From contig QKHT01000283.1 of the NCBI GenBank assembly GCA_003249935.1, positions 1-47,637 of the forward strand: a stretch of DNA of 47,637 nt. Direction: 5' to 3'. Positions 1-24,918 of the stretch are shown in pieces. The stretch is from Bacteroidota bacterium. GTDB lineage: Bacteria; Bacteroidota; Bacteroidia; Bacteroidales; UBA5342. The position numbers were made by a program, and so were the translations under genes. The notes under the pieces are model-generated. The model saw nothing but the letters and a program-made list of their open reading frames with translations, was not told where the DNA came from and searched no databases. The stretch's first letter is position 1, and every line of letters begins with the position of its first letter.

Positions 1-674
1 CCCTTTTGCGCCTTAAAAAAACGGCAAAACGATGTCACATTCATTCCGGCTAACTTTGCTGCATCGGCAAGGTCTATCTCCCGCATGTAATTATTCATCA
101 CAAAATCGTGCACAGCACTTATCCTGCGCGATTTGGACATAAACCGTGCTTTTTCGAACTCCACCGAAACAATGGGTTCGGCTCCAGACCTGAAAAACCA
201 ATCGAGGACCCGTATTAAACTCAGCAACCGGTTTACCGGCGACATTTCGGGTATCGCTTCAAACTCCCGCCGTATTTCGTTGTGTACGGGCAACGTGCAT
301 TTTAGTCCGCGAGAGGCGCGTGAGAGCAATTGTTGAATGCCAACCATTTCGGGAAGTTGAATAAAACGGGTACCAAAAATATCGCGCTTAAACTGTACAT
401 ACACCGATTCACAAACCCCATCGTAATCGTCCCTGAAGAACACCGGATCAGAAAACCAGGCATGCGGCACATTACCGGCCAGCAAAACAAAATCGCCCGG
501 CTCAAATGGCTCGGTCGAATCGCCAACCACACGACGACCATACCCTTTGGTAATAAGCAAAAGCTCTATTTCGGGGTGAAAATGCCACGACCGATTGAAA
601 TACTTGTCCGAAAAACGGTTCGCTATAAACGACGACCCTTTAGCTTTTTCTATTTTCTCAACACTTGGAATCAT
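1..674 (-). CDS. AraC-family transcriptional regulator, cupin sensor domain (partial, C-terminus off window)
   Basis: Reading the minus strand from the ATG at 674 gives 224 uninterrupted residues that run off the window. The N-terminal half resembles the cupin-like ligand pocket of AraC regulators (RSWHFHPEIELLLI, then EPFEPGDFVLLAGNVPHAW). The last 60 or so residues begin the helix-turn-helix domain (MREIDLADAAKLAGMNVTSF, then CRFFKAQKG). The second helix-turn-helix is missing only because the window ends. The gene is divergent from the corrinoid operon at 852 with about 180 bp between, so it is the natural candidate for that operon's regulator, most likely responding to a small molecule bound in the cupin. 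That regulatory link is inferred from position. Confidence 0.88.
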   Translation of the reverse strand, partial: MIPSVEKIEKAKGSSFIANRFSDKYFNRSWHFHPEIELLLITKGYGRRVVGDSTEPFEPGDFVLLAGNVPHAWFSDPVFFRDDYDGVCESVYVQFKRDIFGTRFIQLPEMVGIQQLLSRASRGLKCTLPVHNEIRREFEAIPEMSPVNRLLSLIRVLDWFFRSGAEPIVSVEFEKARFMSKSRRISAVHDFVMNNYMREIDLADAAKLAGMNVTSFCRFFKAQK

Positions 675-706
675 TTGACCTATATTACCTTGAAAAAACC
701 TAAATG

Positions 707-714
707 CAAATATA
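707..714 (-). promoter_or_regulatory. Predicted -7 element for the AraC-type gene
   Basis: On the minus strand this reads TATATTTG, an exact match to the Bacteroidota -7 consensus TAnnTTTG, about 33 nt upstream of the ATG at 674. No convincing -33 TTTG lies 19-21 nt further upstream, so the call rests on one element. Confidence 0.4.
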
Positions 715-761
715 GCTAAAGAAATAATAATTCAGAAAAATCTTAAACCACTAAGTCGCCC

Positions 762-769
762 TATTTTTG
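762..769 (+). promoter_or_regulatory. Predicted -7 element for the corrinoid operon
   Basis: TATTTTTG matches TAnnTTTG and lies 82 nt before the first methyltransferase ATG. It is about 47 bp from the divergent -7 element at 707-714, so one regulator bound between them could control both directions. No cobalamin riboswitch-like element was recognised in the short leader. Confidence 0.4.
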
Positions 770-851
770 TCATGCATTTTTCCTGAAGACATAACAAATG
801 TCAAATTAAGGAAATACGATTTACAATTAACAGCGAAAAATATTAAACAAA

Positions 852-1925
852 ATGACAAAAAGACAAGTAATTTACGAAGTACTTAAAGGCAACAAGCCAC
901 CTTATGTGCCATGGTCCTTTAAGTTTACGGTTGAACCAAAAGAATGGCTGCAAAAATTTTACAACGAAGAAGATTTGGATATTGCATTGGGCAACCACAT
1001 TTTGAACCTTGGCAGCGATATTGGTTTTTTCGAGGAGATTGAACCCAACATGTTTCAGGATGTATTTAAAGTGGTATGGGACAGGTCGATAGACAAAGAT
1101 ATCGGCAACCCACGCGAACCGCTCATCAAGGAGCCTACCATGGAAGGGGTTTATTTTCCCAATCCACACGATCCGCGATTTTTTGCCAACATCGAATCGG
1201 AAATAGAAAAGAAGCCAGATTTGTTTCGTGTATTCCAGATTGGTTTTTCGTTGTACGAACGTGCCTGGAGCATGCGCGGCATGGAAAACCTGTTGATGGA
1301 TTTTATGATGAACCCCGAGTTTGTAAAGGAGCTACTTCGCAAAATAGCCGATTACAACATTGCACAAATTGAAAAAGCAATGGAATACGATATTGATGCA
1401 GTTTATTTCGGCGACGACTGGGGCCAACAACATGGTTTAATTTTCGGTATCGAATTCTGGGAAGAATTTATGTATCCCGAAATTAAACGGATGTACAAAG
1501 CCGTGCGCGACAAAGGCAAATATGTAATGATACACAGTTGCGGCGATGTAGACGAACTCTTTCCATTATTGGTTGATGCAGGCCTAAACAGCTTTAACCC
1601 GTTCCAACCCGAAGTAATGGATTTGTTCGAAATTTTACCACAATACCGCGGCCGTTTGGCATTCCACGGTGGATTATCGATGCAAAAAACATTACCGTTC
1701 GGCACCCCCGACGACGTACGCAACGATTCGGAAAAACTGCTCGAATTGGGTAAAGACGGCGGCTACATTTTCTCGCCATCACACTCGGTAGAGAGCGATA
1801 CCTCCATGGAAAACATTCTTACTTTTATAGAGGTGGCACAAAACCAACCGGCATATCTGGCACATACCGGTTCAGAACCAGTAAAACTGTTAGAGAAGTA
1901 TAAAGCAATAAATGCCGGCAAATAA
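852..1925 (+). CDS. URO-D-family corrinoid methyltransferase (MtaA/CmuA/O-demethylase type)
   Basis: The 357-residue protein has the uroporphyrinogen-decarboxylase fold signature used by methylcobamide methyltransferases. It is not expected to be the haem enzyme, because it sits directly before a corrinoid protein. A metal-type motif H228-S-C230-G is present. A histidine, H311 in SPSHSVES, sits where MtaA/MtbA enzymes have their third ligand, a cysteine, so the site would be H-x-C-Xn-H. Family knowledge says such proteins move a methyl group from a substrate to Co(I)-corrinoid, or from methyl-corrinoid to an acceptor. Of the two URO-D proteins in the operon, this one is the better candidate for the substrate-specific enzyme because it keeps the H-x-C pair. 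The substrate (methoxylated aromatic, methylated sugar, methylamine-like compound) cannot be told from sequence. Confidence 0.8.
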   Translation: MTKRQVIYEVLKGNKPPYVPWSFKFTVEPKEWLQKFYNEEDLDIALGNHILNLGSDIGFFEEIEPNMFQDVFKVVWDRSIDKDIGNPREPLIKEPTMEGVYFPNPHDPRFFANIESEIEKKPDLFRVFQIGFSLYERAWSMRGMENLLMDFMMNPEFVKELLRKIADYNIAQIEKAMEYDIDAVYFGDDWGQQHGLIFGIEFWEEFMYPEIKRMYKAVRDKGKYVMIHSCGDVDELFPLLVDAGLNSFNPFQPEVMDLFEILPQYRGRLAFHGGLSMQKTLPFGTPDDVRNDSEKLLELGKDGGYIFSPSHSVESDTSMENILTFIEVAQNQPAYLAHTGSEPVKLLEKYKAINAGK

Positions 1926-2012
1926 ATTAAATCAGCGACAGAAGAAATATTATCCACTGAATGGTGCAATAAATAGACGATAAAGTTAAAAAAATGACAC
2001 AAAGGGTAATCC

Positions 2013-2020
2013 TATCTTTG
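2013..2020 (+). promoter_or_regulatory. Predicted internal -7 element before the corrinoid protein gene
   Basis: TATCTTTG matches the TAnnTTTG consensus exactly and lies 60 nt before the ATG at 2080, inside the 154-bp gap after the first methyltransferase. It suggests that the corrinoid protein and the downstream genes can be transcribed separately. No clear -33 TTTG was seen. Confidence 0.45.
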
Positions 2021-2079
2021 TCAATTAATTAAAACAGAGCATTTAAAAACACAGGTTCAACAATAAAAAATAAAACAAA

Positions 2080-2748
2080 ATGGAACAGTTATATAGTCAG
2101 TTAGCCGATTGCATCGAATTTGGAAAAATCAATCAGGCAGCACCCTATCCGCCACAATTTAAAGGGATGCCGGGAGCCGACGAACTCACGCAACAACTTT
2201 TGGCCGAAGGCGCTTCGGCAGGCGATATTTTGTCGAAAGCCCTGATTATTGGTATGGAGAAAATCGGTGTAAAATTTCGTGAAAACAAAGTATTTGTACC
2301 ACAAGTACTAATGTCGGCAAAAGCGATGAGCACGGCATTGGTGTATTTGAAACCGTTATTTGCTCAAAACGGTTCGGACCGTAAAGGCACGTTTATTATT
2401 GGTACCGTGGAAGGCGACTTGCACGATATTGGCAAAAATCTGGTAGCCATGATGGTTGAAGGTAACGGATACGAAGTAATTGACCTTGGTACCGACGTAA
2501 CGGCCGAAAAATTTATGGCGGCAGGAAAGGAACACCCGGATGCAGTCATTGGCATGTCGGCACTCCTTACCACAACCATGGGCAATATGGAGAAAATTGT
2601 GCGCGAGATTAAAGCGGCAGAACCAAATCGCAAAGTGTGCATTGGCGGAGCGCCGGTTAACGATGCTTTTGCGAAAAAAATTGGTGCCGATTCGTACAAT
2701 CCCGATCCACAGGGCGTAGTAGAATTCCTCAATGCCATGGCATCTTAA
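2080..2748 (+). CDS. Corrinoid (B12-binding) methyl-carrier protein, MtaC/MtbC type
   Basis: The 222 residues have the usual two-part structure of methyltransferase corrinoid proteins. Residues about 1-90 form a helical cap (GMPGADELTQQLLAEG). From about 95 there is a Rossmann-like B12-binding domain with the cobalt-ligand motif D113-L-H115-D-I-G118, followed by GMSALLTTTM and a C-terminal GGAPV. H115 would coordinate cobalt as the lower ligand. The length is typical for MtaC/MtbC-like carriers (about 210-220 residues). It would shuttle the methyl group between the two flanking URO-D proteins in the cytoplasm and be reactivated by the products of the last two operon genes. Confidence 0.92.
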   Translation: MEQLYSQLADCIEFGKINQAAPYPPQFKGMPGADELTQQLLAEGASAGDILSKALIIGMEKIGVKFRENKVFVPQVLMSAKAMSTALVYLKPLFAQNGSDRKGTFIIGTVEGDLHDIGKNLVAMMVEGNGYEVIDLGTDVTAEKFMAAGKEHPDAVIGMSALLTTTMGNMEKIVREIKAAEPNRKVCIGGAPVNDAFAKKIGADSYNPDPQGVVEFLNAMAS

Positions 2749-2764
2749 TACAAAATAAACGACA

Positions 2765-2804
2765 TCCCGGTTCAGCCCTAAAAAAACTGAACCGGGAATT
2801 TTAA
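2765..2804 (+). terminator. Hairpin between corrinoid protein and second methyltransferase genes
   Basis: CCCGGTTCAG at 2766-2775 pairs with CTGAACCGGG at 2787-2796 (10 bp, 11 with the flanking T-A pair) around an A-rich loop. It is followed only by AATTTT, so it may be an attenuator or RNA-stability element rather than a full terminator, allowing reduced expression of the genes downstream. The stem contains the GGTTCA core seen throughout the window. Confidence 0.55.
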
Positions 2805-2815
2805 AAATAATATGA

Positions 2816-4180
2816 ATGAAGGGAAAAGAGTTAATTAAGAAGGCCATGCGCCTCGAAACCGTTGAGCGTATTCCGTGGGTCCCTTTTGTGGGCAGCCATG
2901 CGGGTACATTACTTGGTCTAACAGCCACAGAATATCTCCAATCGACCGAAAACATTGTAGCCGGCGTAAATAAAGCGATTGAATTATACAATCCCGATGG
3001 TATTCCGGTAGCATTCGACTTACAAATTGAAGCCGAAGTGTTAGGTTGCACTTTAGCTTGGGCCGACGATAATCCGCCCGCTGTGATTTCGCATCCGCTT
3101 ACACAAGGCATTGAACTGGAAAGTCTAAAAGTACCTTGTGCATGCAAAGGCCGTATCCCGGTGGTAATGGATGCCACGGCTCAATTGCGCGCTCAACATC
3201 CCGACATTGCACTTTATGGCCTCATTACCGGCCCGTTTACTTTGGCTTTACACCTTTTGGGAACCGATATTTTTATGAAAATGTTCGAAGACCCCGAATA
3301 TGTAGAAAAGCTGATGCGCTTTACAACCGATGTAGCCAAAATGATGGCGACAAAATATATTGATGCCGGCGCAGATATTGTGGCGGTGGTTGATCCCATG
3401 GTAAGCCAAATCGACCCAATGTCGTTCGAAACCTTCGTATCACCTTCGTGTACCGAAATTTTCAACCACATTCGCGATAATGGTGCCCTTAGTTCGTTTT
3501 TTGTTTGCGGCAACGCACAACAAAACATCGAATGCATGTGCGATTGTAAACCCGACAATATTTCTATCGACGAAAATATTCCGTTGGGCTTTGTAAAAGA
3601 TATTGCACTCGATAAAGGGGTGAGTTTTGGTGGCAACATTAAACTTACTGTAGCACTTTTGATGGGTACAACCGATGCATCGAAACGCGATGCGCTCGAA
3701 TGTATGGACATTGGCGGTAAACGCGGGTTCATTCTTGCTCCAGGGTGCGATTTAGCCATGGCTACACCAATCGAAAACTTACAGGCCGTAGCAGAATTGG
3801 TTCATGACGAAGTAGAACAGGGCGAATTGCGTGCTTCTACCGCCGATGTAGCCGGAATCGAAGCATTGGATTTAACCAACCACTGGCGTGCCGATAAAGT
3901 TATTATCGACATTATTACCCTCGACTCTTCGTCGTGTGCACCGTGCCAGTATATGGTAAACGCGGTAGAACGTGCTGCGGCCGACTTTGGCGACAAGGTA
4001 ATTTTTAAAGAACACCGCATCAAGGACATGGAAGGAGTACAAATGATGGTGACGTTGGGTGTTCAAAACCTGCCAACCATTGTTATGGACGGTACTGTAG
4101 AATTTATTTCACAGATTCCACCCATTGCAAAAATTAAGGAGCGTATTGATGCGCATTTAAGTTTAAAGGGTATTAGATAG
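2816..4180 (+). CDS. URO-D-family methylcobamide methyltransferase fused to a thioredoxin-like domain
   Basis: This 454-residue protein has an MtbA/MtaA-like URO-D domain (about 1-345) and a C-terminal thioredoxin-like domain (about 360-454). The fused domain carries C374-A-P-C377 in a glutaredoxin-like setting and a later cis-proline-type stretch, NLPTIVMDG. In the URO-D part, two metal-ligand cysteines are visible: C231 in FFVCGNAQ and C311 in LAPGCDLAMATP. The histidine that usually precedes the first one (H-x-C) is Phe229. The metal site may therefore differ, or the protein may not bind zinc in the standard way. The start at 2816 is used because the ATG at 2812 hits a stop after eight codons. 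It probably accepts or passes on the methyl group, with the CxxC domain acting in redox or metal handling; the fusion's role is inference. Confidence 0.82.
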   Translation: MKGKELIKKAMRLETVERIPWVPFVGSHAGTLLGLTATEYLQSTENIVAGVNKAIELYNPDGIPVAFDLQIEAEVLGCTLAWADDNPPAVISHPLTQGIELESLKVPCACKGRIPVVMDATAQLRAQHPDIALYGLITGPFTLALHLLGTDIFMKMFEDPEYVEKLMRFTTDVAKMMATKYIDAGADIVAVVDPMVSQIDPMSFETFVSPSCTEIFNHIRDNGALSSFFVCGNAQQNIECMCDCKPDNISIDENIPLGFVKDIALDKGVSFGGNIKLTVALLMGTTDASKRDALECMDIGGKRGFILAPGCDLAMATPIENLQAVAELVHDEVEQGELRASTADVAGIEALDLTNHWRADKVIIDIITLDSSSCAPCQYMVNAVERAAADFGDKVIFKEHRIKDMEGVQMMVTLGVQNLPTIVMDGTVEFISQIPPIAKIKERIDAHLSLKGIR

Positions 4181-4191
4181 TGTATAAAAAC

Positions 4192-4228
4192 AAAAGGCAT
4201 ACACCGCAAATTGCGGGTATGCCTTTTT
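4192..4228 (+). terminator. Intrinsic terminator-like hairpin after the second methyltransferase gene
   Basis: AAAAGGCATAC (4192-4202) pairs with GTATGCCTTTT (4217-4227), with CCGC/GCGG continuing the stem after a one-base bulge, then a T run. It lies only 10 nt before the CobW-type ATG at 4239, so the last two operon genes are probably read through it at a lower level or need another promoter. Confidence 0.75.
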
Positions 4229-4238
4229 AATTTTTAGA

Positions 4239-5159
4239 ATGATCCCGTTTTATTTAATCACAGGTTTTTTAGGAAGTGGTAAAACCACGCTGCTGCAACA
4301 GTTGCTTTCGGATGTGGGGAGCCGGCACAAAACGGTGGTTATACAAAATGAGTTTGCAAGTACGGGCATCGATGGCATCACGTTAAAACGAACCAACCCC
4401 GATTTCGAACTCATCGAAATGAACAACGGATCGGTATTTTGTGTGTGTTTACTGAGCAATTTTGTAACCACCTTACACACCATTATCGAAAAACACCAAC
4501 CCGAAATTATCTTCCTCGAAGCATCGGGACTTGCCGACCCCATAAATGTGGCCGAGCTTTTGCAACACGAAAATCTGAAAGGCAAACTTATTCTCGAAAA
4601 GGTAATAACAGTAGTCGATGCGGTTAATTTTGAACGATGCCTGCAAATGATGAACCGGTTCAAACACCAAATTATGATTGCCGACACAGTAATTATAAAC
4701 AAAACCGACCTCAACACCGTTGGATTGCCCGCAATAAATGCACACATCAAAACCATAGCACCTTTTGCTCAAATCATCGAAACAGAATATTGTGCCGGGT
4801 TTCATTTAGCAATGAACCAGTTACCAAACAGCCCGAATGCACTCCGACATACAGGACTTGCCTCCGAAGGCAAACCCGAAATGGTTCAGACCTGCGTGGT
4901 ACGCACCACCGAAAAAATATCGCGAGAAGCACTCACAAAATTCATCGAAACCTTTACGCCACTTTGCTTACGACTTAAAGGATTCGTTAACCTCACCGAC
5001 AATACCGTTGTGTCGATACAAAGTACATTTGACCAAACCGATTATGTGCCTTTTACAAACTATCACGGTCCCAGCGAACTTATTGCGTTCAGCACGAGTC
5101 TCACGTCCACCGAATTCCGAAAAGCATTCTTGAATCTTACGCACAACGAAACAAAATGA
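4239..5159 (+). CDS. CobW/COG0523-family GTPase, metallochaperone or corrinoid-enzyme chaperone
   Basis: The 306 residues begin with the P-loop GFLGSGKTT (residues 9-17), followed by LEASGLADP (the Walker B/switch region) and NKTD, the guanine-specificity motif. The C-terminal third matches the CobW C-terminal domain. The usual metal motif CxCC after the Asn-Gly turn is altered: here it reads NNGSVFCVCLLS, leaving only a C-x-C pair. Relatives deliver Zn or Co or act as G-protein chaperones for B12 enzymes. Its place between the methyltransferase and the activation-domain gene, with a 4-bp overlap (ATGA) into the latter, suggests a job in loading or repairing the corrinoid protein. That role is inferred. 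Confidence 0.85.
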   Translation: MIPFYLITGFLGSGKTTLLQQLLSDVGSRHKTVVIQNEFASTGIDGITLKRTNPDFELIEMNNGSVFCVCLLSNFVTTLHTIIEKHQPEIIFLEASGLADPINVAELLQHENLKGKLILEKVITVVDAVNFERCLQMMNRFKHQIMIADTVIINKTDLNTVGLPAINAHIKTIAPFAQIIETEYCAGFHLAMNQLPNSPNALRHTGLASEGKPEMVQTCVVRTTEKISREALTKFIETFTPLCLRLKGFVNLTDNTVVSIQSTFDQTDYVPFTNYHGPSELIAFSTSLTSTEFRKAFLNLTHNETK

Positions 5160-5875
5160 AAACAAAAACCACACAAAGCATGGTTACAACATATACCCCG
5201 GTAACTTACCGGTTCACCTTGGAAGAGCTAAATATCGAAGTAGAACCTATTTACAAACTCATGGGTTTCGACCCCGACGATGTGCACGAGCCATTTCCCG
5301 AAATGATACAGAACGAATTGGCGATACTCGCCCCTTATTGCAATATTCAGGGCGGGTATGTTTTGGTTGAACCGGTTGAACTGCAGGACAAAACCATAAT
5401 TATTAATGGCGTAACGTTCGAAGTGGGCAAAAAAGTTACGCGCTACCTGAAAAACAGCCAAAGAATGGCTCTGTTTACCTGCACGGCCGGCGAAGGCATT
5501 TCGGCCCGATCCAAACAATTTATGGATAACGGCGATATGCTCGAGGGTTACATTACCGATGTTATTGGCTCTGTAATTGTAGAAACAGCCATGGACCGTA
5601 TTCACAATTATATTAAAAACGAATATAGTTTAATGGGCGAAAACACGACCAACCGTTACAGCCCCGGATACTGCAATTGGAGCGTAGGCGAACAGTTTAA
5701 ATTGTTTAGCTTTTTACCCGACAATTTTTGTAATGTTTCGCTATCAGAAAGTGCCCTGATGCATCCCATAAAATCGGTGAGCGGATTTATCGGTCTCGGC
5801 ACCGATGTCAAATTCATCGAATATCTTTGCGACAACTGCAACAGCACCAATTGCATTTATCGGAATCTTAAGTAA
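5156..5875 (+). CDS. Stand-alone B12-dependent methionine synthase activation-domain protein
   Basis: The 239-residue protein resembles the C-terminal AdoMet-binding reactivation domain of MetH but has no other MetH domains. Seen in the sequence are GYCNWSVGEQFKLFSFLP and ESALMHPIKSVSGFIGLG, which match the MetH activation-domain signature (RxSPGYxxxP-type region and the M-x-P-x-K-S-V-S-G loop). The C-terminus is cysteine-rich (CDNCNSTNC). In MetH this domain supplies AdoMet to re-methylate inactive cob(II)alamin. As a separate protein in a corrinoid operon it would reactivate the carrier encoded at 2080, in place of an iron-sulfur RACE-type activator. Start codon and CobW stop overlap, so the two are translationally coupled. 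Confidence 0.85.
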   Translation: MKTKTTQSMVTTYTPVTYRFTLEELNIEVEPIYKLMGFDPDDVHEPFPEMIQNELAILAPYCNIQGGYVLVEPVELQDKTIIINGVTFEVGKKVTRYLKNSQRMALFTCTAGEGISARSKQFMDNGDMLEGYITDVIGSVIVETAMDRIHNYIKNEYSLMGENTTNRYSPGYCNWSVGEQFKLFSFLPDNFCNVSLSESALMHPIKSVSGFIGLGTDVKFIEYLCDNCNSTNCIYRNLK

Positions 5876-5879
5876 GGTG

Positions 5880-6194
5880 TTGGAAACAGTTAGAAACAGT
5901 TAGAAACAGTTGAAAACAGTTGAAAACAGTTGAAACAGTTGGAAACAGTTGGAAACAGTTAGAAACATTTGAAAACAGTTGAAACAGTTGAAAACAGTTG
6001 GAAACAGTTGAAACAGTTGAAACAGTTGAAAACAGTTGAAAACAGTTGAAAACAGTTGAAAACAGTTGGAAACAGTTGGAAAAACAGTTGAAAACAGTTG
6101 AAAACAGTTGAAAACAGTTGAAAACAGTTGAAACAGTTGAAACAGTTGAAAACAGTTGAAAACAGTTGAAACAGTTGAAACAGTTGGAAACAGA
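5880..6194. repeat. Tandem array of 9/10-bp units (GAAAACAGTT type)
   Basis: About 32 consecutive units of GAAAACAGTT, GGAAACAGTT, TAGAAACAGT-type or the 9-bp form GAAACAGTT fill the whole space between the convergent activation-domain gene and the beta-helix gene. Each unit contains AACAGTT, a pseudo-palindrome of the form AACnGTT, and an A-tract. One degenerate unit has CATTTG. The array ends exactly at the stop codon of the beta-helix gene (6195-6197). Because 9- and 10-bp units are mixed, no reading frame is conserved, so it is not a coding repeat. Confidence 0.95.
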
Positions 6195-8612
6195 TTATCG
6201 ACAGATTACAATTCTGCGACTTTCCGATTCTCGGTTATTTTTAATATTGAGGACGTATACACCTCCCGATATTTCCGGCGTGAGGTTCAACACAAAGGAG
6301 GTTACAGGCAAATCGAAAAATCGGTTTTCGGAAAGTACGATTTGACCTTTTAGATTAACTAAAGAAATATTTAACGAACCGGAAAATGTTTTTTTGTTCG
6401 AACATTGCAATAGTGCCATTGACTGTTTATAGGCTACTTGCCAATGGCTTACCTGAGGTGTAGTTTTGCCGAGAAGCGTAAATATTTCACCTGTTTTGGA
6501 ATTACATGCCCCGATATTAGGTGTGCCGGAAGATAAATCTATGGAATTGCCATACAAATCGACTGTAGGATAAACGGGTATGTTGTTAAAGATACCATAT
6601 CCCGCATTGGTAACCTTTGGACCTGTATCAGGCATGCCTTTGTTAATTGCCGCACTACCTGCTTGAAGTTGAAATGCATATGCATTATCGCCGGTGCCCA
6701 CAAACAGCGGATCTGCATTTATTGGCGCAGCATCCATACTCACCCAATTAGGGTTTACATTTCCATGATAGAGGTTATTTTTCATGGTAAATGGGGTACC
6801 GTTGTTATTTACTGCAAATTGCAAATACCCCATTGTTGCGCCATTTGTGGATGAAAAGATATTGTTATAGATAGATATGTTTTTTGCATCGACATTAAAG
6901 GTCGTTGTAAATTCCTTATTCATAACCACTGTGTTATTATAAATATATATCCCGTCACTTAATTGCAGTGCAGCCTGATTTGGTTCAACCCAACGATCGG
7001 AATAAACATAAATGGTGCTACTACCAGCCTTCCAAGTCGACACGCCACTCGAATATCTAAAACCACTATTTAAGCTCACGTTAAAACGATAAACCGCATT
7101 TACATTGTCGGCCAATATTTCAACAAAACCACCAATGCAATCGTCCATATAATTGTACTGTACAAATGTATTTTTATTGTGTTTATCAATATGTATCCCA
7201 TACGAATCGAGATACCCCCGAGTGGATAGACAGTTATTGTACTGCACAATGGTATTGATGGCGTTATAATTCCAAACCGAACTACCGCGTGCGGGCATAC
7301 GTGGGTCGGTTGAAGCCCCCGGATGGTCAAAGATGTTGTTTTCAATCAGACAGTTATAGGTGCTGTTTGGTAATACACCGGATCCGCCATTATAATAAAA
7401 TTCGTTGTTGTGAATATAGATGTTCATATTGCGGTTAATAGAGTCGTTGCCAACACCATCATTTCCGCCGGCATGCTTAAGCTGAACTCCAAAGCGCTGA
7501 TTATTGGCAAAATAACAGTTTTTAATTTCAATATCACTGATGTTTTTTTCTGAACCTATGGTTGTGTTTTTGGTGCAATAGAAGCTCAGTGCTGCAACTT
7601 GTATTTTATCGAAATCTTCGGGTAAAATCATAGGCTGAACAGCAAAAACGTTCTTGATGGTTACGTTATTAAAAATGAGGTTTTTCATGACTCTTCCCCC
7701 ACTATTTTTCACATAGATTCCATAAGCATCGGTGTCCGCTACGCCGGAACGTGTCACCAAACGTTCGTTCTGTACTTCTATATTATCGAAAATGAGGTTG
7801 TCATTATTTTCTACTAAAATGGCTTCTTCATAATCACCTCCGCCATCGGCACCTACTTTACCACTTATGATAGGCTTTTCGCCTTCGCCATAGGCGGTAA
7901 TAAGAATCGGTTTAGTGCTGATCCCGGATCCATTAACCACATAGCGTCCATTAAATTGGTCGCCACACTTAAAAAATACGGTGTCGCCGGGCCATAGTGT
8001 GGTGGCACTCAATTTATCTAAGCTCCTCCACGGCGCATTTTTTGTACCTGTATTGCTGTCGTTTCCACCGCTGCTGCTTATATAATATGATGTTTGCCTT
8101 TGCGAAGAGTACACCTTAAAATTATCGATATCGATAGTGCCTGACCAGTATTGAAACAAGCCAATTTTAATTTTTGTAATACCCGAAGCCGGAATAAAAA
8201 CCAATTGCAGTTTTTTCCACTCTGTTTCTTCTGCTGTCGTAGCTGGTTTATAATCGACGGATGAACCCAGCAACAAGTCGTTTTCGGAGTAAATACGAAG
8301 TTGCCTCTTGAACGCCCCTCTGCTGTCGGCTTCGTATGTGTAGGTTTTACCGGGTTCAACCGTAATAACTTTTGCAATTTGCATATTTGCACTCGCATTG
8401 ACATCGGCTACCATGCGGGCAAATTTATTGCCATTGCTCTCGGTAACCACAGCGGTCACATTACCGGTGTAGGTGCTGCCTTTGGTCAAAGTATAACCAT
8501 CGTCAGTCAGGTTAGTGCCAATAATTTTAGCATCAAAATTCTCGTCGAAAGCAACTTGTGCGTTCAATACAAATGACCACAAAAAAGTGATGAACAATGT
8601 TAAATATTTCAT
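6195..8612 (-). CDS. Secreted parallel beta-helix (pectate-lyase-like) protein with T9SS sorting domain
   Basis: The 805-residue protein starts with a signal peptide (MKYLTLFITFLWSFVLNAQ). Residues about 20-170 look like a carbohydrate-binding jelly-roll module (DENFDAKIIGTNL... IDIDNFKVY). From about 175 there is SGGNDSNTGTKNAPWRSLDK, the typical entry to a right-handed parallel beta-helix, then many NN-rich beta-helix coils (IYIHNNEFYYNGGSG, IYNNTVVMN). The C-terminus (GGVYVLNIKNNRES, then RRIVICR) is a type A T9SS sorting signal, so the protein should be exported to the surface or medium. The specific lyase or hydrolase activity is not identifiable. It lies 43 bp downstream of the GH2 gene on the same strand and is probably co-transcribed with it. 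Confidence 0.82.
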   Translation of the reverse strand: MKYLTLFITFLWSFVLNAQVAFDENFDAKIIGTNLTDDGYTLTKGSTYTGNVTAVVTESNGNKFARMVADVNASANMQIAKVITVEPGKTYTYEADSRGAFKRQLRIYSENDLLLGSSVDYKPATTAEETEWKKLQLVFIPASGITKIKIGLFQYWSGTIDIDNFKVYSSQRQTSYYISSSGGNDSNTGTKNAPWRSLDKLSATTLWPGDTVFFKCGDQFNGRYVVNGSGISTKPILITAYGEGEKPIISGKVGADGGGDYEEAILVENNDNLIFDNIEVQNERLVTRSGVADTDAYGIYVKNSGGRVMKNLIFNNVTIKNVFAVQPMILPEDFDKIQVAALSFYCTKNTTIGSEKNISDIEIKNCYFANNQRFGVQLKHAGGNDGVGNDSINRNMNIYIHNNEFYYNGGSGVLPNSTYNCLIENNIFDHPGASTDPRMPARGSSVWNYNAINTIVQYNNCLSTRGYLDSYGIHIDKHNKNTFVQYNYMDDCIGGFVEILADNVNAVYRFNVSLNSGFRYSSGVSTWKAGSSTIYVYSDRWVEPNQAALQLSDGIYIYNNTVVMNKEFTTTFNVDAKNISIYNNIFSSTNGATMGYLQFAVNNNGTPFTMKNNLYHGNVNPNWVSMDAAPINADPLFVGTGDNAYAFQLQAGSAAINKGMPDTGPKVTNAGYGIFNNIPVYPTVDLYGNSIDLSSGTPNIGACNSKTGEIFTLLGKTTPQVSHWQVAYKQSMALLQCSNKKTFSGSLNISLVNLKGQIVLSENRFFDLPVTSFVLNLTPEISGGVYVLNIKNNRESESRRIVICR

Positions 8613-24630: not shown

Positions 24631-24918
24631 GCTGCCATTCGTTCGCCGAGGCAAAAATTGCAGCTAAGCATGCCGCCATTCGTTCGCCGAGGCAAAAATT
24701 GCAGCTAAGTACGCCGCCATTCGATCGCCGAGGCAAAAATTGCAGCTAAGCATGCCGCCATTCGATCGCCGAGGCAAAAATTGCAGCTAAGCATGCCGCC
24801 ATTCGTTTGCGGCAACAAAAATTACAGCTAAGCATGCCGCCATTCGATCGCCGGGACAAAAATTGCAGCTAAGCATGCCGCCATTCGTTCGCCGAAGCAA
24901 AAATTGCAGCTAACGCAT
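24631..24918. repeat. Seven tandem 41-bp repeats
   Basis: Units start with GCCGCCATTCG and contain GCAAAAATTGCAGCTAA; each is 41 bp, and seven follow one another with small changes (GATCGCCGAGG vs GTTCGCCGAGG, one unit with GTTTGCGGCAAC). The last ends in TAACGCAT with one extra base. Because 41 is not a multiple of three, no peptide repeat is encoded. GCAAAAATTGC within each unit is a small palindrome, so each unit could form or be bound as a symmetric site. Confidence 0.93.

Follow-up and report, generated by a model that had tools for sequence, protein, structure and literature searches.

Our comparative sequence analysis indicates that the gene for a CobW-type GTPase (CobW) tracks a gene for a thioredoxin-fused methyltransferase (UroD2-Trx), and not the overlapping gene for a MetH-type activation protein (Act). 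We draw this conclusion because the locus table, the phylogenetic contrasts, the whole-genome searches and a UroD2-centred sample agree. The original prediction had treated CobW and Act as one unit, in which AdoMet and a G protein together repair the oxidised Co(II) state of a corrinoid carrier. That interpretation appears to be half right, with the AdoMet half likely correct and the GTPase half likely wrong.

We consider it probable that the two genes provide two separate maintenance functions within one corrinoid cassette, Act being an AdoMet-dependent reactivase resembling TM0269 and CobW a COG0523 metallochaperone for UroD2-Trx. In this scheme, two UroD-superfamily proteins, one of them fused to a thioredoxin-like domain, would transfer a methyl group to and from a small corrinoid carrier, between a presumed donor and acceptor. 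Once the carrier cobalt oxidises to Co(II), Act would dock on the carrier, a cellular reductant would donate one electron, and AdoMet would trap Co(I) as methyl-Co(III); this reaction is modelled on MetH and on the split TM0268/TM0269 pair. CobW would load metal in a GTP-dependent manner, with the metal site of UroD2-Trx as its most likely client.

Composition of the five-gene cassette

The window, meaning the whole 47,637-nucleotide stretch of DNA that was analysed, contains a Bacteroidota cassette, so assigned from its relatives, in the order UroD1, corrinoid protein, UroD2/thioredoxin, CobW and Act, the last two forming the overlapping pair (Table 1). The predicted reading frames of this pair were recovered exactly, and their 4-bp overlap is an ATGA sequence, in which the start codon ATG (5156-5158) meets the stop codon TGA (5157-5159).

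Table 1. Features of the cassette in the window
Feature	Position	Strand	Evidence
UroD1, URO-D/MtaA-CmuA-type, candidate substrate:corrinoid methyltransferase	852..1925	+	Pfam URO-D 81.8 bits
Corrinoid (B12) carrier protein, MtgC/MtbC/MtaC-like	2080..2748	+	Pfam B12-binding 85.3, B12-binding_2 56.8 bits
UroD2-Trx, MtaA-like methyltransferase with C-terminal thioredoxin-like domain, CAPC motif	2816..4180	+	Pfam URO-D 198.8, Thioredoxin_3 25.7 bits
Terminator-like hairpin, UroD2-Trx/CobW gap	4192..4227	+	-24.5 kcal/mol, z -6.1 (folding of 4181-4240)
CobW-type G3E/COG0523 GTPase, NNGSVFCxC clade	4239..5159	+	306 aa; Pfam cobW 131.2, CobW_C 22.5 bits
Cys68-Val69-Cys70 of the conserved NNGSVFCVC motif, CobW	4440..4448	+	Motif alignment
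Act, predicted stand-alone MetH-type AdoMet activation protein	5156..5875	+	239 aa; Pfam Met_synt_B12 PF02965 40.8 bits
R-Y-S-P-G-Y segment of Act, aligned with R1134...Y1139 in the AdoMet site of E. coli MetH	5654..5671	+	Alignment
CxxC-x4-C tail, C-terminus of Act	5828..5854	+	Without counterpart in E. coli MetH

The carrier matched the corrin_MtgC_2 model at E 1.2e-53, which is below that model's cut-off, and UroD1 likewise matched MtaA/CmuA-type models below their cut-offs; against solved structures, UroD1 gave no match at E 0.001. UroD2-Trx matched MtaA (4ay7) at E 1.1e-33. To map its metal site we took the MtaA ligands to be His-Cys-Cys, drawing in part on Kountz and Balskus. At the HxC motif of MtaA the His is replaced by Phe229, while Cys231 and Cys311 are kept, an arrangement invariant in 12/12 sequences. 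Because this His is lost, the metal site of UroD2-Trx is itself uncertain, which counts against the proposal that it is the client of a CobW metallochaperone.

The assignment of the first gene of the pair to the CobW-type GTPases held. The protein has a cobW P-loop domain and matched YjiA (1nij) at E 7.4e-15, and the G3E features are conserved, with Walker A at G9-T16 and the NKxD motif at N154-K155-D157. Its structural model (pLDDT 82.1) resembled UreG and YjiA at Z 15.9 and MeaB at about Z 13. Matches to CobW on plasmids were all below 60% identity.

The Cys-Val-Cys sequence noticed in the original prediction in place of CxCC is present, but calling it degenerate was misleading. The CXCC metal motif was not found, and NNGSVFCxC was invariant in 26/26 aligned CobW relatives, so a decaying motif was rejected. 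When 29 genomes were searched, the 7 matches above 300 bits carried NGS[VL]FCVC and 5 COG0523 homologues at 145-165 bits carried GCICC. By these alignments, NNGSVFCxC sets a clade apart from the ordinary COG0523 proteins of other Act-bearing genomes. The clade also differs from the family description in Haas et al. 2009 (PMC2770081), where CXCC is given for all COG0523 members.

Co-occurrence of the GTPase gene with UroD2-Trx

We compiled a table of 66 loci, namely the window and the 65 relatives whose sequence extends at least 4 kb upstream of Act; loci with less than 4 kb upstream were left out, as were L061 and L099, which share contigs with L018 and L021. CobW was present in 27/27 loci with UroD2-Trx and in 1/39 without it, and Act occurred without CobW in 38 of the 66. 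Across all 91 loci, 35 had both CobW and UroD2-Trx, 2 had CobW only and 54 had neither. On the Act tree, seven or eight of the eight independent UroD2-Trx contrasts went with CobW and none went against it (sign test p 0.008-0.016). The lone CobW locus without UroD2-Trx among the 66 is L100 (6088-6992), where CobW is split into two frames by either decay or an assembly error.

The same association was seen in whole genomes. We picked 29 genomes: 28 in which CobW had not been detected close to Act, and one, G413, in which it had not been detected close to UroD2-Trx. The CobW clade was detected in 7 and UroD2-Trx in 6, with agreement in 28/29 (Fisher p 1.5e-5, genomes treated as independent). The exception, G388, where the CobW clade is present and UroD2-Trx is not, counts against our favoured explanation. 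Neither the CobW clade nor UroD2-Trx was found anywhere in 22 of the 28 Act genomes lacking CobW at the Act locus. UroD2-Trx was present in 12 of 247 genomes sampled across the order, with CobW nearby in 11/12 and Act nearby in 8/12. This sample and the 29-genome set appear to share one genome, since G559 and G383 gave an identical place and score.

These results bear directly on the view that the GTPase belongs with Act to a single repair machine. In that view the G protein, in a role like that of MeaB towards its B12 enzyme, would gate or power AdoMet-dependent reduction of the carrier in its Co(II) state. The 4-bp overlap, found here and in 7/35 loci with CobW and Act, suggests translational coupling of the two genes and counts against two separate functions; G3E folds include chaperones of B12 enzymes such as MeaB; and no gene for the reductive activase RACE was detected in the genome. 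Against a joint machine stand the many loci with Act but no CobW, the Act genomes that have neither the CobW clade nor UroD2-Trx, the co-variation of CobW with UroD2-Trx, a genome (G569) that keeps CobW together with RACE while Act was not detected, and the COG0523 genes that adjoin ramM in methanogens. We consider a single GTPase-Act machine quite unlikely, and the functional pairing of the two proteins is the part of the original prediction that our data do not support.

Alternatively, in systems of the UroD2-Trx type alone, CobW could load or edit the carrier or the carrier's cofactor instead of acting on UroD2-Trx itself. The genes for CobW, the carrier and UroD2-Trx do travel together, and MeaB-like folds act on B12 enzymes, yet many loci have similar carriers without CobW. 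We regard this alternative as unlikely.

The metallochaperone role that we prefer is supported by analogy with COG0523 subfamily 13. According to Haas et al. 2009 (PMC2770081), this subfamily co-localises with corrinoid methyltransferases, including mtaABC (with Zn-dependent MtaA/MtaB), and with ramM. The association of COG0523 proteins with corrinoid methyltransferases, in which G3E GTPase genes adjoin these enzymes as CobW does here, has thus been known since 2009. A COG0523 clade whose metal motif is non-canonical and for which a candidate client can be named would make the role of the GTPase next to corrinoid methyltransferases directly testable.

Act and the proposed reactivation of corrinoid carriers

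PF02965 is the only Pfam domain of Act (residues 101-219; cut-off 25 bits), and Act therefore lacks a RACo/ASKHA domain. An AlphaFold2 model built with a 57-sequence alignment reached pLDDT 93.5. Its best match among solved structures was TM0269 (Z 21.6 over 195 residues, 18% identity). It matched the AdoMet-bound MetH domain 6bm5 at Z 18.1, and the AdoMet-bound and other MetH domains together at Z 16.7-18.3. In total, 14 MetH-family structures, TM0269 included, matched at Z 16.7-21.6, and the nearest unrelated fold at Z 6.1. By its predicted fold, Act is a stand-alone MetH-type activation protein. The absence of MetH noted in the original prediction applies to the locus; contig C53 of the genome encodes a complete MetH that includes an activation domain.

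The AdoMet-site residues kept in Act are R167, P170-G171-Y172 and E143. The AdoMet contacts of E. coli MetH given in PMC1282579 are Asp946, Glu1101, Arg1134, Tyr1139 and Tyr1189. When 90 Act sequences were aligned to E. coli MetH, Arg occupied the Arg1134 position in 88/90 rows and Tyr1139 was kept in 88/90, while the Glu1101 position was Asp in 79/90. Glu1097, which we take to be a further AdoMet-contact residue, was kept in 84/90. The Asp946 position was Gly in 82/90 rows, in a region of weak N-terminal alignment, and Tyr1189 had no reliable match. The change of Asp946 to Gly and the unmatched Tyr1189 argue against reading Act as an AdoMet reactivase.

All 90 Act proteins end in a CxxC-x(4,5)-C pattern, and the three tail Cys are invariant in 57/57 rows of the Act alignment. 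The tail was not matched in TM0269, where the aligned region stops at chain position 209 of 214. TM0269, from the split MetH of Thermotoga maritima (PDB 1J6R), resembles Act as an activation domain encoded by a separate gene, but it serves methionine synthase, whereas the partner of Act would be an MtaC/MtgC-like carrier with UroD proteins. TM0269 is reportedly needed for reactivation of TM0268. According to Price et al. 2018, the reactivation domain PF02965 can occur as a protein in its own right, and elsewhere B12 is reactivated by DUF4445 proteins.

Act also occurs in other corrinoid contexts. Of the 65 relative Act loci in the table, 49 include a corrinoid-protein gene. Without CobW, Act accompanies MtaB, a carrier and a homocysteine methyltransferase in L045, and a carrier and MTHFR in L074. 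An open reading frame with a homocysteine-methyltransferase-like motif, assigned by regular expression only, was found in 30/89 loci; two of these, L025 and L026, contain long MetH-like frames. Because Act is found beside other corrinoid systems where CobW is missing, we infer from these gene neighbourhoods that in these bacteria it may serve corrinoid carriers generally as their activase. In L025 and L026, the stand-alone Act has a MetH-like neighbour, 820 or 774 aa long, an arrangement like the TM0268/TM0269 split. Among 295 sampled genomes of the class, Act was found in 2, this genome and another whose weak match lies in a frame of 902 aa, which indicates a patchy family. No plasmid copies of Act were found.

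The original prediction had itself proposed a genome-wide search for RACE. Using the C-terminal domain of RACo (PF14574), we obtained 0 matches in this genome, while the same search detected the Methanosarcina acetivorans control. Since the assembly comprises 326 contigs at 97.5% completeness, a RACE gene could have been missed. RACE was also found in 0/295 of the sampled class genomes, so its absence is the class norm. A second corrinoid-type cluster exists in this genome, in which no RACE was found (C139; L137 1918-5924), and consists of a small B12-binding protein, UroD, a DUF1638 protein and a sensor-kinase-like gene.

RACE was encoded in 17 of the 57 Act-bearing genomes searched (48 of 80 named loci and 9 further genomes). 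In five loci with the CobW cassette (L018, L029, L047, L073 and L084) it is the next gene after Act, within 21 bp; a sixth relative, L131, has it about 130 bp after Act; and L053, which lacks CobW, carries it immediately upstream of Act. Among relatives with the cassette, Lutibacter is an example without detected RACE, the search being negative in the genomes of L067, L087 and L092; in Marinilabilia rubra and Labilibacter sediminis, Act and RACE are adjacent. Contrary to the original prediction, the two activases thus do not strictly replace one another. Together with the class-wide result, these counts weakened the absence of RACE as specific proof of replacement. All 12 UroD2-Trx genomes had Act, RACE or both, with Act in 11 and RACE alone in G569.

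We next considered whether Act has ceased to be an AdoMet reactivase and serves as a docking or assembly protein, or passes electrons to the carrier through its Cys tail. The loss of the Asp946 position, the tail conserved throughout the family and the six relatives with RACE as the next gene, where reduction may for that reason already be provided, are consistent with such a role. The near-invariance of the Arg, PGY and Glu of the AdoMet site argues against it, as does the lack of detectable RACE in this genome, and we find the idea highly improbable. A joint reading is that Act and RACE in the six relatives form a serial activase, with RACE driving the electron uphill and Act trapping Co(I) with AdoMet, and that in genomes without RACE the electron is accepted by the invariant Cys tail instead; we hold this to be very doubtful.

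AdoMet-dependent repair of the carrier by Act is likely because of the predicted MetH fold, the partly kept AdoMet contacts, the neighbouring corrinoid gene and the failure to detect RACE. This is the portion of the proposed AdoMet and G protein repair that found support; the pairing with the GTPase did not. The proposed job of Act, returning Co(II) carriers to the cycle, is that of the RamA/RACE reductive activases. In the preprint of Kountz and Balskus (PMC10418091), RACE-containing UroD clusters act on methyl-sulfur or methyl-selenium. The Type 1 mlp gene clusters described there resemble the cassette in having several UroD proteins, a corrinoid protein and no folate methyltransferase. They differ in using RACE and in UroD sites that are nearly all His-Cys-Cys, whereas UroD2-Trx has Phe-Cys-Cys and a thioredoxin fusion; the words 'CobW', 'GTPase' and 'activation domain' are absent from the main text of that preprint. 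Our search of open-licence papers found no description of a CobW-Act pair or of Act serving an MtaC-type carrier. With the proposed role of Act, AdoMet repair of the MetH type would reach beyond methionine synthase to carriers of the MtaC/MtgC type in Bacteroidota, and the relatives with both genes provide a conserved operon with AdoMet- and ATP-dependent activases side by side.

Hairpins, repeats and flanking sequence

No corrinoid riboswitch was found at the gathering threshold within positions 1-8000. On the opposite strand, 5' of the cassette, is the beginning of a gene interrupted by the contig end, which looks like a putative AraC-like gene. The terminator-like hairpin between UroD2-Trx and CobW possibly lowers the expression of the two helper genes, CobW and Act, judging from the folded sequence. 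A second strong hairpin of 15 pairs was located at 2765-2797, 3' of the corrinoid-protein gene. Directly 3' of Act, a 10-bp repeat (GTTGGAAACA) recurs about 32 times across 5879-6193, and a further tandem repeat at 24634-24918 has a 41-bp unit in 6.9 copies with 90% matches.
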